From: Acidobacteriaceae bacterium
Lineage (GTDB): Bacteria > Acidobacteriota > Terriglobia > Terriglobales > Acidobacteriaceae
Length of the DNA: 64,000 nt
Reading direction: 5' to 3'
NCBI GenBank assembly: GCA_028283625.1
Contig: JAPWKG010000010.1
Span: forward strand, 121,665-185,664
Positions 4,358 through 30,305 of the stretch are shown piece after piece. The position numbers and the translations under genes are program-made. The stretch's first letter is position 1. Each line of letters begins with the position of its first letter. The notes beneath the pieces were generated by a model. The model had not been told where the DNA came from. It was given only the letters and a program-made list of their open reading frames with translations, and did no database searches.

Positions 4358-5182
4358 CTACTTCTTGCGACGCGAAACGATGAACACGTCGGTACGCTTG
4401 TTGTTACGCGTCTTGTAGCCACGCGTCGGCTGACCCCACGGGGTGACCGGATGACGGCCGCCCGAGGTCTTACCTTCACCACCACCGTGCGGGTGATCGA
4501 CCGGGTTCATCGACACACCACGGTTGGTCGGGCGGATGCCCTTCCAGCGGTTACGGCCAGCCTTACCGATCGTCACGTTCTCGTGGTCGGTGTTGCCCAC
4601 CTGGCCAACGGTCGCCATGCAGTCGATAAGAACCTTACGGGTCTCGCCCGAAGGCAGACGAAGCAGAGCGTAGTCGCCTTCCTTGGCTACCAGGTTCACC
4701 TGAGCACCTGCGGAACGCGCCATCTGCGCGCCGCGGCCCGGGCGAAGCTCGATGTTGTGCACGATCGTACCCACCGGAATGTTGCGCAGGGGCAGAGCGT
4801 TGCCAACGAGAATATCGGCCTCGGGGCCGCTCATGATCTGCTGACCAACGGTCAGACCGATCGGCTGAACGATGTAGCGCTTCTCGCCGTCCGCGTAATG
4901 GATCAGAGCGATACGAGCAGAGCGATTCGGGTCATACTCCACCGTCGCAACCTTGCCCGGAACACCGAACTTGTCGCGCTTGAAGTCAATGATACGCAGC
5001 TTCTGCTTGTGGCCACCGCCATGGTGACGCATGGTCAGCATACCGGTGTTGTTACGACCGCCGGTGCGCTGCTTGGTGGCCAGCAACGGCTTATGCGGCT
5101 TATCGGTCGTGATGTCGTCGTTTACGAGCTTCGTCTGGAAGCGAAGCGTCGGGGTAATGGGGCGAAAACTTTTAATCGGCAT
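4358..5182 (-). CDS. rplB: 50S ribosomal protein L2
   Basis: [16 protein letters not shown]...[38 protein letters not shown]. Confidence 0.98.
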
Positions 5183-5310
5183 TGCCTAATCCTTAGCTTT
5201 TTCCGCGCCTTTCAAATTGAGTGCCTGGCACTCGGCGCGATAGGTACTGCATCCGCTCAGTGAGCGGAGATGGCTCCGGGCTGCTGAACAGCACCGGAGC
5301 CTCACTACTT

Positions 5311-27078: not shown

Positions 27079-28047
27079 GTGCTTCAAACCATGAATGTTA
27101 TTGGAATCAAATCGCTCGGAACCGCTCTGCTGGATCGCGTGGGCAATACCCCGCTCCTTCGCCTTGACCGCCTGACCGCACACCTGCCCGGAGTTCAGAT
27201 TCTGGGTAAAGCGGAGTGGGCCAACCCCGGCGGCAGCGTGAAGGATCGTGCCGCCTCGGCTATCGTCTCCGACGCCCGCGCCAAAGGCCAGCTGACGCCC
27301 GGCAAGCACCTGCTGGATGCAACCAGCGGCAATACCGGCATCGCGTACGCCATGCTGGGTGCCGCCCAGGGCTTCCCCGTCACGCTGTGCGTCCCGGCCA
27401 ACGTAAGCCCCGAGCGCAAGCACATCCTCTCGGCCTACGGTGCGAACATCGTCTGGACCGATCCCGCAGACGGCTCGGACGGCGCCATCCGTATGGCGCG
27501 CAAGCTTTTCGCCGAACAGCCCGAAAAGTACTTCTACGCCGACCAGTACGGCAACCAGAACAACTGGCAGGCGCACTACAAGACCACCGCCAATGAAATC
27601 TGGGAGCAGACCGAGGGCACCGTCACGCACTTCATCGCAGGGCTGGGCACCTCGGGCACCTTTATCGGCACAACGCGCCGCCTGAAGGAGCTGAACCCGG
27701 CCATCCAGTGCTACTCCATGCAGCCGGATTCTCCCTTCAACGGTCTGGAAGGCCTGAAGCACATGGCCACCGCCATTGTGCCGCCGATCTACGACGAGAA
27801 ACTGGCCGACCGCAATATCGACATGCCGACCGAACGCGCCTACAGCATGGCCAAGAAGCTCGGCCGCTCGCAGGGCCTGCTGGTCGGCGTCTCCGCAGCA
27901 GCCGTCGTGGCCGCCTGCGTGGATGTAGCCGAGGAAGAGGCCAAGGCGGGCCGCCAAGCGGTCATCGTCACCATTTTGCCCGACTCTGCAGACAAATACC
28001 TTTCCGAACACTTCTGGAACGAACACACCGAAGACGACGACCAATAG
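27079..28047 (+). CDS. cysM: Cysteine synthase B-like PLP enzyme (CysM)
   Basis: DRVGNTPLLRLDRL...WANPGGSVKDRAASAIV...LDATSGNTGIAYAMLGAAQGFPVTL. Confidence 0.92.
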   Translation: MLQTMNVIGIKSLGTALLDRVGNTPLLRLDRLTAHLPGVQILGKAEWANPGGSVKDRAASAIVSDARAKGQLTPGKHLLDATSGNTGIAYAMLGAAQGFPVTLCVPANVSPERKHILSAYGANIVWTDPADGSDGAIRMARKLFAEQPEKYFYADQYGNQNNWQAHYKTTANEIWEQTEGTVTHFIAGLGTSGTFIGTTRRLKELNPAIQCYSMQPDSPFNGLEGLKHMATAIVPPIYDEKLADRNIDMPTERAYSMAKKLGRSQGLLVGVSAAAVVAACVDVAEEEAKAGRQAVIVTILPDSADKYLSEHFWNEHTEDDDQ

Positions 28048-28049
28048 CC

Positions 28050-28484
28050 ATGAGCCTGCTTCTCTCAAAAGACCTCTACGATGAGCTTCGCCAACACGGC
28101 GAGGAAACCTATCCGCACGAGTGCTGCGGCATCATGCTCGGCAAGGGCGCCAGCAACGGCACCCGCGTGCACAAACTGATGCGTGCCGGTAATACCCGTA
28201 CCGACTCCGCTCATAACCGCTACAGCATTGCGCCGCAGGAACTGATTCGCGCCCAGCGCGAGGCCCGTCAGGCGGGTTTGGACATCATCGGCTTTTACCA
28301 TTCGCACCCGGATCATCCGGCGCAATGGTCGCAGACCGACTATGCCGAAGCGCACTGGTTCGGCTGCAGCTATGTGATTACTGCGGTGGACCATGGCCAT
28401 GCAACCACGACCAACAGCTTTCTGCTCGCCGGTACCGGCGAAGAAGACAAGCGCTTTGAAACGCAGCCCATCGCCGTCGAATAA
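28050..28484 (+). CDS. M67 (JAMM/Mec-type) metallopeptidase
   Basis: Intact JAMM motif: HECCG ... HSHPDHPAQWSQTD (HxH-x7-S-x2-D). Confidence 0.92.
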   Translation: MSLLLSKDLYDELRQHGEETYPHECCGIMLGKGASNGTRVHKLMRAGNTRTDSAHNRYSIAPQELIRAQREARQAGLDIIGFYHSHPDHPAQWSQTDYAEAHWFGCSYVITAVDHGHATTTNSFLLAGTGEEDKRFETQPIAVE

Positions 28485-28511
28485 CGGCGGCAGGAAGCCT
28501 GAATTTCCCCC

Positions 28512-28534
28512 TGTCCTCCCTTTCGGGGAGGACA
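28512..28534. repeat. Hairpin between JAMM peptidase and MoaD/CysO genes
   Basis: TCCTCCC-TTTCG-GGGAGGA stem, no U-tract. Confidence 0.5.
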
Positions 28535-28635
28535 ACTTCTTGCTCCGCAAAGCGATTTGAGCCTGTTTTGCCCGCGAATACGGTTCCGGCCTGCATCCAA
28601 CACGCAGGCCGCCGCATCTCGTAGAATGGAGAAAC

Positions 28636-28944
28636 ATGAAGATCCATATCCCCACACCGCTGCGCGCCTACACCGACAAACAGGAGACTGTTTCGGTTGC
28701 CGGTGCCACCGTGGCCGAGGGCCTGGACGAGTTGACGAAGGCATTCCCTGCCATGCGCGCTCACCTGTTCACGCCCGACGGCAAGCTGCGGAGCTTCGTC
28801 AATGTTTATCTCGACGACGAAGACGTTCGCTACCTCCCGGCAAAGGAAGCGACCGCGGTTGCCCCTGAAGCCGAACTCACCATTATTCCTTCCATCGCCG
28901 GCGGCTGTTGTAGCCTGCCCGCTGCTGGTTGTTGTCGCTCGTAG
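28636..28944 (+). CDS. MoaD/ThiS/CysO-type sulfur carrier protein with masked GG terminus
   Basis: MKIHIPTPLRAYTDKQETVSVAGATVAEGLDELTKAFPAMRAHLF...ELTIIPSIAGGCCSLPAAGCCRS*. Confidence 0.9.
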   Translation: MKIHIPTPLRAYTDKQETVSVAGATVAEGLDELTKAFPAMRAHLFTPDGKLRSFVNVYLDDEDVRYLPAKEATAVAPEAELTIIPSIAGGCCSLPAAGCCRS

Positions 28945-29075
28945 CTCCCTGGCTTTTCGCGAGAACCCTGCAGCTCCTGTTTCCAGAAACAACTGAAATC
29001 CCCGCTTTTTTCCGCATCGCGGAGCCGAAAGTTTTTCCTCTTTCTGCCCGCGACGCCGAAACAACAAGGAACCCC

Positions 29076-30305
29076 ATGCCAGCCACGTTTGAAGCACCCA
29101 CCGCGACCGAGCTCCCCAAGCTCTCCAACGAAGAGATTGCCCGCTACTCGCGGCACCTGATCCTGCCGGAGGTTGGCCTCGAAGGTCAACAGAAGCTGAA
29201 GGCAGCTAAGGTGCTCTGCGTCGGTACCGGTGGCCTGGGCGCGCCGTTGGCGCTCTACCTCGCCGCAGCCGGTATCGGCACCATCGGCCTGGTCGACTTC
29301 GATGTCGTCGATGAATCGAACCTGCAGCGCCAGATCATTCACTCCCAGTCCACCGTCGGCAAGCTCAAGGTGGATTCGGCCGAGATCATGCTCAAGGGCC
29401 TAAATAAGAACGTCAATGTCATCAAGCACAACACGATGCTGACCTCGAAGAACGCTCTCGAAATCTTCAAGGACTATGACGTCATTGCCGACGGCACCGA
29501 CAACTTCCAGACGCGCTACCTCGTCAACGACGCCTGCGTGCTCACCGGCAAGCCCAACGCATACGGCTCCATCTTCCGCTTCGAGGGCCAGGCTTCGGTC
29601 TTCGCCACCGAGGAAGGCCCCTGCTACCGCTGCCTCTACCCCGAACCGCCGCCCCCGGGCCTCGTTCCGAGCTGTGCCGAGGGTGGCGTGCTCGGCATTC
29701 TGCCCGGCCTCGTCGGCGTCATCCAGGCGACGGAAGTCATCAAGCTGATCCTCGGCATCGGCGAGCCGCTCGTCGGCCGTCTGCTGCTCGTGGACGCGCT
29801 AAACATGGGCTTCCGCACGCTGAAGCTGCGCAAAAACCCGAACTGCCCGGCCTGCGGCACGCACGAGATCAAGGAACTGATCGACTACGACCAGTTCTGC
29901 GGTATCGCACCCCCGACCTCAACCGGTCCGCTCGAAGTCTCCTCGCACGGCAACGTAGACGCCAGCGCCAACGTCGTGGATGGCATTGCCCAGATCACCG
30001 TCGAAGAGTACAAGGCACGCCTGGACAAGGGCGACAAGCCGTTCCTGCTCGATGTGCGTGAGCCGCACGAGTACCAGATCGTCAACCTTGGGGCTCCTCT
30101 CATTCCGGTAGGCCAGATCGGCTCCCGTCTGAACGAGATTCCGGTCAGCAAGGACACCGAGATCGTGGTGCAGTGCAAATCCGGCGGACGTTCACAGAAG
30201 GCGGCACTGGAGCTAAAGGCTGCGGGCTTCACCAACGTGAAGAACCTGGCAGGCGGCATTACCGCCTGGGCCGATCGCATCGACACCAGCCTGCCCAAGT
30301 ACTAA
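29076..30305 (+). CDS. moeZ: Adenylyltransferase/sulfurtransferase (ThiF/MoeB + rhodanese, MoeZ-type)
   Basis: LSNEEIARYSRHLILPEVGLEGQQKLKAAKVLCVGTGGLGAPLALYLAAAGIG...NCPACG...rhodanese VVQCKSGGRSQKA. Confidence 0.93.
   Translation: MPATFEAPTATELPKLSNEEIARYSRHLILPEVGLEGQQKLKAAKVLCVGTGGLGAPLALYLAAAGIGTIGLVDFDVVDESNLQRQIIHSQSTVGKLKVDSAEIMLKGLNKNVNVIKHNTMLTSKNALEIFKDYDVIADGTDNFQTRYLVNDACVLTGKPNAYGSIFRFEGQASVFATEEGPCYRCLYPEPPPPGLVPSCAEGGVLGILPGLVGVIQATEVIKLILGIGEPLVGRLLLVDALNMGFRTLKLRKNPNCPACGTHEIKELIDYDQFCGIAPPTSTGPLEVSSHGNVDASANVVDGIAQITVEEYKARLDKGDKPFLLDVREPHEYQIVNLGAPLIPVGQIGSRLNEIPVSKDTEIVVQCKSGGRSQKAALELKAAGFTNVKNLAGGITAWADRIDTSLPKY

Follow-up and report, generated by a model that had tools for sequence, protein, structure and literature searches.

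The window analysed here, a stretch of 64,000 nucleotides from contig JAPWKG010000010.1 of an Acidobacteriaceae bacterium, belongs to a draft genome of 3.0 Mb in 31 contigs that is 85% complete. Its forward strand carries a neighbourhood of genes for a cysteine synthase, a JAMM peptidase, a small sulfur carrier and a MoeZ-type activating enzyme. The original prediction had named this neighbourhood, and profile searches uphold its family assignments. The features used below are, in window coordinates:

27,094-28,047, plus strand: CysM-type cysteine synthase (PLP); Pfam PALP, 1e-66; NCBIfam TIGR01138 (cysM), 1e-100, below the curated cut-off
28,050-28,484, plus strand: JAMM/MPN+ peptidase (Mec-like), 144 aa; Pfam Prok-JAB, 2e-25; PHECCG...HSHPDHPAQWSQTD, with a complete E..HSHP..SxxD motif
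28,512-28,534, plus strand: terminator-like hairpin, 10 bp, between the JAMM and carrier genes (consensus scan)
28,636-28,905, plus strand: body of the CysO/SAMP-type sulfur carrier, beta-grasp, residues 1-90, ending in GG; Pfam ThiS, 1e-8
28,906-28,941, plus strand: encoded C-terminal mask CCSLPAAGCCRS, 12 residues after GG, read from the ORF; a variable form occurs in 113 of 114 distinct relatives
28,906-28,911, plus strand: first Cys-codon pair, TGT TGT (P1'-P2'), read from the sequence
28,930-28,935, plus strand: second Cys-codon pair, TGT TGT, then CGC TCG TAG; putative tract of Cys codons of leader type, ahead of moeZ
28,945-29,075, plus strand: carrier-moeZ interval, 131 nt, which in relatives holds separate poly-Cys short ORFs
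29,076-30,305, plus strand: MoeZ, a ThiF-type adenylyltransferase with a rhodanese domain (CKSGGRS), 409 aa; Pfam ThiF, 7e-81; Rhodanese, 7e-15

The carrier ORF (28,636-28,944, plus strand) starts with ATG and encodes 102 aa, with the C-terminus ...TIIPSIAGG-CCSLPAAGCCRS followed by TAG. Its tail had been described as 12 residues with four cysteines in two CC pairs, which is exact, and all four codons are TGT. CysM and the ThiF-rhodanese protein with its CKSGGRS loop were also found where they had been placed. For the peptidase, the complete JAMM motif was confirmed, including the E...HxHx(7)SxxD metal and catalytic residues, but the gene is not immediately upstream of the carrier as had been claimed: 151 nt lie between the two and hold the hairpin. 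This hairpin may separate two transcription units, so carrier and moeZ are possibly transcribed on their own.

Among solved structures the best match of the carrier is Mycobacterium tuberculosis CysO (3dwg, E = 1e-13), with the internal GG of the carrier aligned to the terminal GG of CysO, and the best relatives of the JAMM protein are 2kcq (E = 9e-26) and 2kks. The carrier is a beta-grasp, ThiS/MoaD-like protein closest to CysO, and cysM, JAMM (mec) and moeZ are linked to it. The Mycobacterium CysO/CysM/Mec/MoeZR pathway (PMC3227635) accordingly has a homologous carrier, PLP synthase, JAMM protein and E1-rhodanese. However, GG is the very end of M. tuberculosis CysO (93 aa in the solved chain), whereas the Acidobacteria carrier is masked by an encoded tail or by fusion to MoeZ. 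In the window 12 residues come after GG, which would presumably become terminal only once processing has occurred.

Of the NCBIfam models, SAMP1 and desampylase come nearest, with neither match reaching its curated cut-off, and they raise the question of whether the carrier is a ubiquitin-like protein modifier that the JAMM protein mainly removes from its targets. This is very improbable, given that CysO is the nearest solved relative and that an operon with CysM and MoeZ is of the cysteine-pathway type in table row 4c of Iyer, Burroughs and Aravind 2006 (PMC1779556). That row (ThiS/MoaD, JAB, E1-rhodanese, cysteine synthase) already lists the arrangement for Solibacter, that is, the same four genes in the same phylum as the window. 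In the accessible part of that paper we came across nothing on a tail shared across the family, on its Cys codons or on leader ORFs.

We searched 201 genomes of the family and took 100 loci, to which 45 named loci and a phylum-wide sample were added. The named relatives of the locus are Acidobacteriaceae (Granulicella, Bryocella, Acidipila and Edaphobacter). Residues after GG, from 1 to 31 in number, are encoded in 113 of 114 distinct unfused relatives. Comparative genomics thus bears out the proposal of a CysO-type carrier with a masked GG, and the objection that orthologues end at GG fails, as one of the 114 does so. A frameshift, stop read-through or pseudogene in the assembly is ruled out as the source of the tail by the same relatives: the architecture recurs in over 100 of them, complete one-contig genomes included, and selection at the codon level, described below, is seen within the tail.

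A single residue is the commonest tail length (26 cases) and a length of zero occurs once, which suggests that a bare GG is disfavoured rather than that the tail merely drifts. The shortage of zero-length tails gives P = 0.03 under a simple random-stop model and is extreme relative to the frequency of length 1, both being rough yardsticks. The tail sequences are hypervariable (C, R, L, D, AA, TSC, CCR, CCCL, CCCCCCL, SGRMADCACSCCCCR and others). A CCxxxxxGCC tail conserved among orthologues, which the original prediction had put forward as a check, was not found: the exact CC...CC layout is common only to the nearest relative, with CCSPLAAGCCR (L033), and the layout differs among other relatives, so a conserved metal motif of this form was dropped. 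Beyond the nearest relative the tails are hypervariable and yet enriched in Cys. As a separate observation, the carrier tails of L083 and L129 include intergenic repeat sequence of the GTCATCCTGAG type, suggesting repeat insertion at the gene end.

Masked carriers are known from QbsE/QbsD, PdtH/PdtG and HcyS/HcyD, in which a JAMM protein removes a short C-terminal extension (GGCF in QbsE). Judged by layout, the window carrier is of this type, with encoded residues after GG and a linked JAMM gene; the three pairs differ from the cysteine pathway in their products. The JAMM gene was found in 190 of the 201 family genomes and in 145 of the 147 high-quality ones. Every family genome with a CysO-type carrier (E < 1e-20) also has JAMM, and such a carrier is found in none of the 11 genomes lacking JAMM, several of which are incomplete. 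Of 106 relatives, 105 have the complete motif; the remaining sequence contains unread bases. Among outgroup Acidobacteria, carriers ending at GG make up 0 of 18 JAMM-linked cases (fusions included) versus 6 of 7 CysM-adjacent ones without JAMM (P = 4e-5), and one genome (G468) holds both kinds. This association fits a JAMM protein that must cut after GG, that is, obligate unmasking. In the Actinobacterial relatives L166 and L170 JAMM is present and the carrier may end at GG, so JAMM does not demand a tail. In two genomes (G012 and G086) the open frame that holds the JAMM match is about 570 aa long and may be JAMM fused to another operon protein.

In several lineages the mask takes the form of an in-frame carrier-MoeZ fusion, in which a short linker leads from GG to the E1 domain. 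The phylum-wide sample shows that these fusions are common in other parts of the phylum too, and the tree forces at least four changes of this state. For fused ThiS/MoaD termini, release by JAB proteins was already proposed by Iyer, Burroughs and Aravind 2006 (PMC1779556). MoaX of M. tuberculosis, which functions only once its internal carrier GG has been cut (Gly82-Ser83; PMC4326299), resembles the carrier-MoeZ fusions in this need. Unlike them it is a MoaD-MoaE fusion, and PMC4326299 names no protease.

Cys is the first residue after GG (P1') in 39 of 113 tails, roughly eleven times as often as expected (about 3%). The preference is also seen in tails that have no CC pair (21 of 82, again against about 3%) and in a paralogue linked to threonine synthase, whose carriers end in GGCC, GGCV or GGCI. 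The encoded precursor thus often resembles CysO-Cys, which the pathway itself produces. In mycobacteria, Mec cuts this carrier-Cys intermediate (PMC3227635), and the resemblance of the encoded GG-Cys bond to it leads us naturally to infer that one peptidase would make both cuts, at the tail and at carrier-Cys. The suggestion that the JAMM protein unmasks the carrier and also releases CysO-Cys is likely on comparative genomic grounds.

Cysteine makes up 21% of tail residues, as against 3.1% on average and 4.1% at most in 500 shuffles of tail plus flank, and a CC pair is present in 31 of 114 tails, with 2.2 expected. The codons of these Cys runs are biased as well: TGT accounts for 96 of 108 (89%) compared with 182 of 1,631 (11%) in the CysM, JAMM and MoeZ genes of the same loci, in which UGU is the rare Cys codon. 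The remaining tail codons have a normal GC3 (0.76 versus 0.78 in the carrier body). Each of the 53 TGTTGT occurrences in tails falls in the Cys frame, and the density of Cys runs close to a stop is 51 times higher from GG to moeZ than over the remainder of the loci. The window tail is a modest example of such a tract, with two CC pairs and no run of three or more. Its genus neighbours have CCCR and CCCL, and at the position of the second pair relatives have TGT runs ending in CCR, CCL or CCCR before the stop.

Two explanations at the protein level have to be weighed against these numbers. The first is that the tail serves as a mask only, a neutral or mildly favoured pro-peptide cut off by JAMM, with TGT runs as slippage tolerated in a disposable tail and Cys favoured as JAMM already recognises the GG-Cys bond of CysO-Cys. 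In its favour are the hypervariable length and sequence of tails, the intergenic repeat sequence of L083 and L129, and the enrichment of P1' Cys, which extends to tails that lack Cys runs and to the paralogue linked to threonine synthase. It leaves unexplained the Cys at the far end of tails, the preference for TGT and the fact that TGTTGT keeps strictly to the Cys frame. A reversed choice among synonymous codons is not what selection on the protein alone would predict, and repeat slippage could yield TGT runs but not their strict frame. The second explanation is that the Cys-rich peptide is functional in itself, binding zinc or sensing redox state or cysteine, and so controls cleavage or acts after release. 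Runs of as many as six Cys, as in L181, could bind metal, and a P1' thiol would lie near the JAMM zinc. The spacing of the cysteines is nevertheless not conserved, tails range from a single C to 31 residues without Cys, and the codon bias, together with separate ORFs described next, points to the nucleic acid level, so that we regard a functional peptide as improbable.

In ten loci whose tails are not Cys-rich, the gap between carrier and moeZ holds a separate short sense ORF ending in a Cys run such as CCCCR, for example MDRFPMNATCHTRRCCCCCR (L095) and MARTSQYRPACGCCCCCMCCCR (L110), each followed by the stop. One antisense case was found, and shuffles predict 0.05. The gap between JAMM and carrier has four such ORFs in sense, in related loci, and one in antisense (0.05 expected), and in L115 a poly-Cys short ORF lies upstream of cysM. 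A CC tail and an ORF in the carrier-moeZ gap occur together in 0 of 29 loci, whereas 10 of 82 loci without a CC tail have the ORF (P = 0.06). On the tree, with weak support in parts, the CC-tail state and the separate-ORF state each changed several times independently. By the criterion used, a poly-Cys element is absent from 66 of 111 unfused loci (about 60%). A tail that is only a mask leaves the independent ORFs of plain-tail relatives unexplained too, and we consider that reading unlikely, though a serious competitor.

No conserved RNA structure accompanies the tract in the searches made. An ACAACA near moeZ in the window suggested that the Cys tract might pair with the ribosome site of moeZ, but this was rejected (29 loci, mean z -0.18, 2 at P < 0.05). 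Local hairpins at the tail end do not distinguish CC tails from other tails (P = 0.59), Shine-Dalgarno sequestration is weak and runs in opposite directions in the two classes, and an Rfam search gave no match.

Mycobacterial poly-Cys leader ORFs are stand-alone and leaderless. They precede cys operons, have Cys-codon runs near the stop and lack a conserved hairpin (Seliverstov 2005, PMC1262725), and Canestrari 2020 is cited as showing that poly-Cys ORFs attenuate downstream genes in a cysteine-dependent manner (PMC9031893; also cited in PMC9094748). The Acidobacteria elements are alike in their Cys runs near the stop of short ORFs, and in their sulfur-gene context, and no conserved terminator hairpin was found for them either. 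They differ in belonging to another phylum, in being UGU-biased and in that some are joined to a protein gene at its 3' end. The window has this fused form, as its tract is the carrier's own 3' end, and the element stands alone only in relatives. Tandem Cys codons in a leader ORF are likewise known from uORFC-8-2 upstream of cysS in Rhodobacterales, which has an intrinsic terminator and mostly UGC (PMC8632094), in contrast to the absence of conserved structure and the mostly UGU codons in Acidobacteria.

By analogy with the mycobacterial cysteine-responsive attenuators, the most likely role of the Cys tract is that of a poly-Cys leader element fused into a disposable tail. The main reading, to which we give a probability of roughly 0.6, is that of a CysO-type carrier that is masked, would be unmasked by JAMM and has in its tail a cysteine-responsive leader element for the downstream gene. 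The carrier would be made as an inactive precursor of the cysteine pathway. By homology to Mec, CysO, CysM and MoeZ, JAMM would cut after GG and take off the encoded tail, MoeZ would then adenylate and thiocarboxylate GG, CysM would transfer the sulfur to give carrier-Cys, and the same JAMM would free the cysteine, one peptidase thus making two cuts. Because the tail would be discarded by JAMM, its sequence would be free to vary and could come to house a leader element, in this genus and in at least several other lineages as rare UGU Cys codons upstream of moeZ; in other relatives the element would be a free-standing short ORF. When Cys-tRNA is scarce, we infer, the tract would slow ribosomes and moeZ downstream would be expressed more strongly, as with the mycobacterial leader ORFs. 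The tail had been proposed to sense cysteine, zinc or redox state. The cysteine part may hold in view of the UGU runs and leader ORFs, whereas zinc and redox sensing found no support. As the signal lies in codons and in separate leader ORFs, cysteine would be sensed through Cys-tRNA and ribosome stalling, a route that the original prediction had not raised, rather than through peptide chemistry. Against the leader model, L036 and L037 have poly-Cys tails but moeZ lies 1.3-2.3 kb away, and long Cys-rich tails occur on paralogue-type carriers without an adjacent moeZ (L203, CCAQGESRFAPEQLRCCSYCGQEECLCY; L173, CCSCCSYCGREDCACC).

Precedents exist for masked carriers with JAMM, for the operon type and for poly-Cys leaders. 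The open-access literature searched gave no example of hypervariable tails masking the carrier across a family, of poly-Cys leaders in Acidobacteria or of such leaders fused into a disposable tail. If the main reading is true, a maturation cut frees coding sequence to serve as a regulatory sensor, and one short stretch combines the processing of a protein with translational sensing of what its pathway makes. Poly-Cys leader control, described so far in the sources consulted for Actinobacteria and, at cysS, for Rhodobacterales, would extend to Acidobacteriota and would suggest a cysteine regulon there that is searchable by sequence. JAMM as an obligate unmasking enzyme also becomes testable, as nearly every carrier of the family seems to need it.

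Across the family, Cys-codon runs near a stop are found upstream of cysteine and sulfur genes other than moeZ; these leader ORFs were mostly found with a pattern that already assumes TGT, and their downstream genes were identified by reading the sequence, without a family search. Poly-Cys ORFs precede cysK, as MFLASPYRSHRFSQGPCACCCCCCR 64 nt upstream (L287) and MRAIANSAPCDSCRLCCCR 63 nt upstream (L291), as well as ATP sulfurylase/APS kinase (L271) and a sulfatase-like gene (L282). In L280, L281 and L285, from two genomes, a near-identical leader, MH(T/A/I)(A/I)SRLCCCCR, lies about 105 nt before the gene of a thioredoxin-fold protein. TonB-dependent receptor genes follow such ORFs in L284, L295 and L297, and in the window's own genome (L279; G000:C10:62300-68300), where the tandem ORFs MKNILTHRVCCCR and VRPHGLCCCH precede the receptor gene and a third, MVFSFTYRLCCCR, precedes a Tat-signal protein gene. 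A match in L245, antisense within a flagellin gene, and other Cys runs within long ORFs were discarded as leader candidates. In a gene-based scan, 2 of 23 cysK genes (0.22 expected) and 1 of 23 ATP sulfurylase genes had such an ORF, so leader use is patchy. The wider proposal, that the post-GG pro-peptide doubles as a cysteine-responsive attenuator of moeZ, that across Acidobacteria it repeatedly arose or changed places with free-standing leader ORFs, and that it belongs to a regulon with cysK, ATP sulfurylase, sulfatase and TonB transporters, is held tentatively, as something a little short of an even chance.

The window's genome also has a second carrier (L051; G000:C5:214451-224723, at about locus positions 4919-5270), which ends IPSIAGGCC before the stop. 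This paralogue lies directly downstream of a threonine-synthase-like PLP gene, and a MetH-like ORF is also nearby in L197; such a carrier might donate sulfur for homocysteine.
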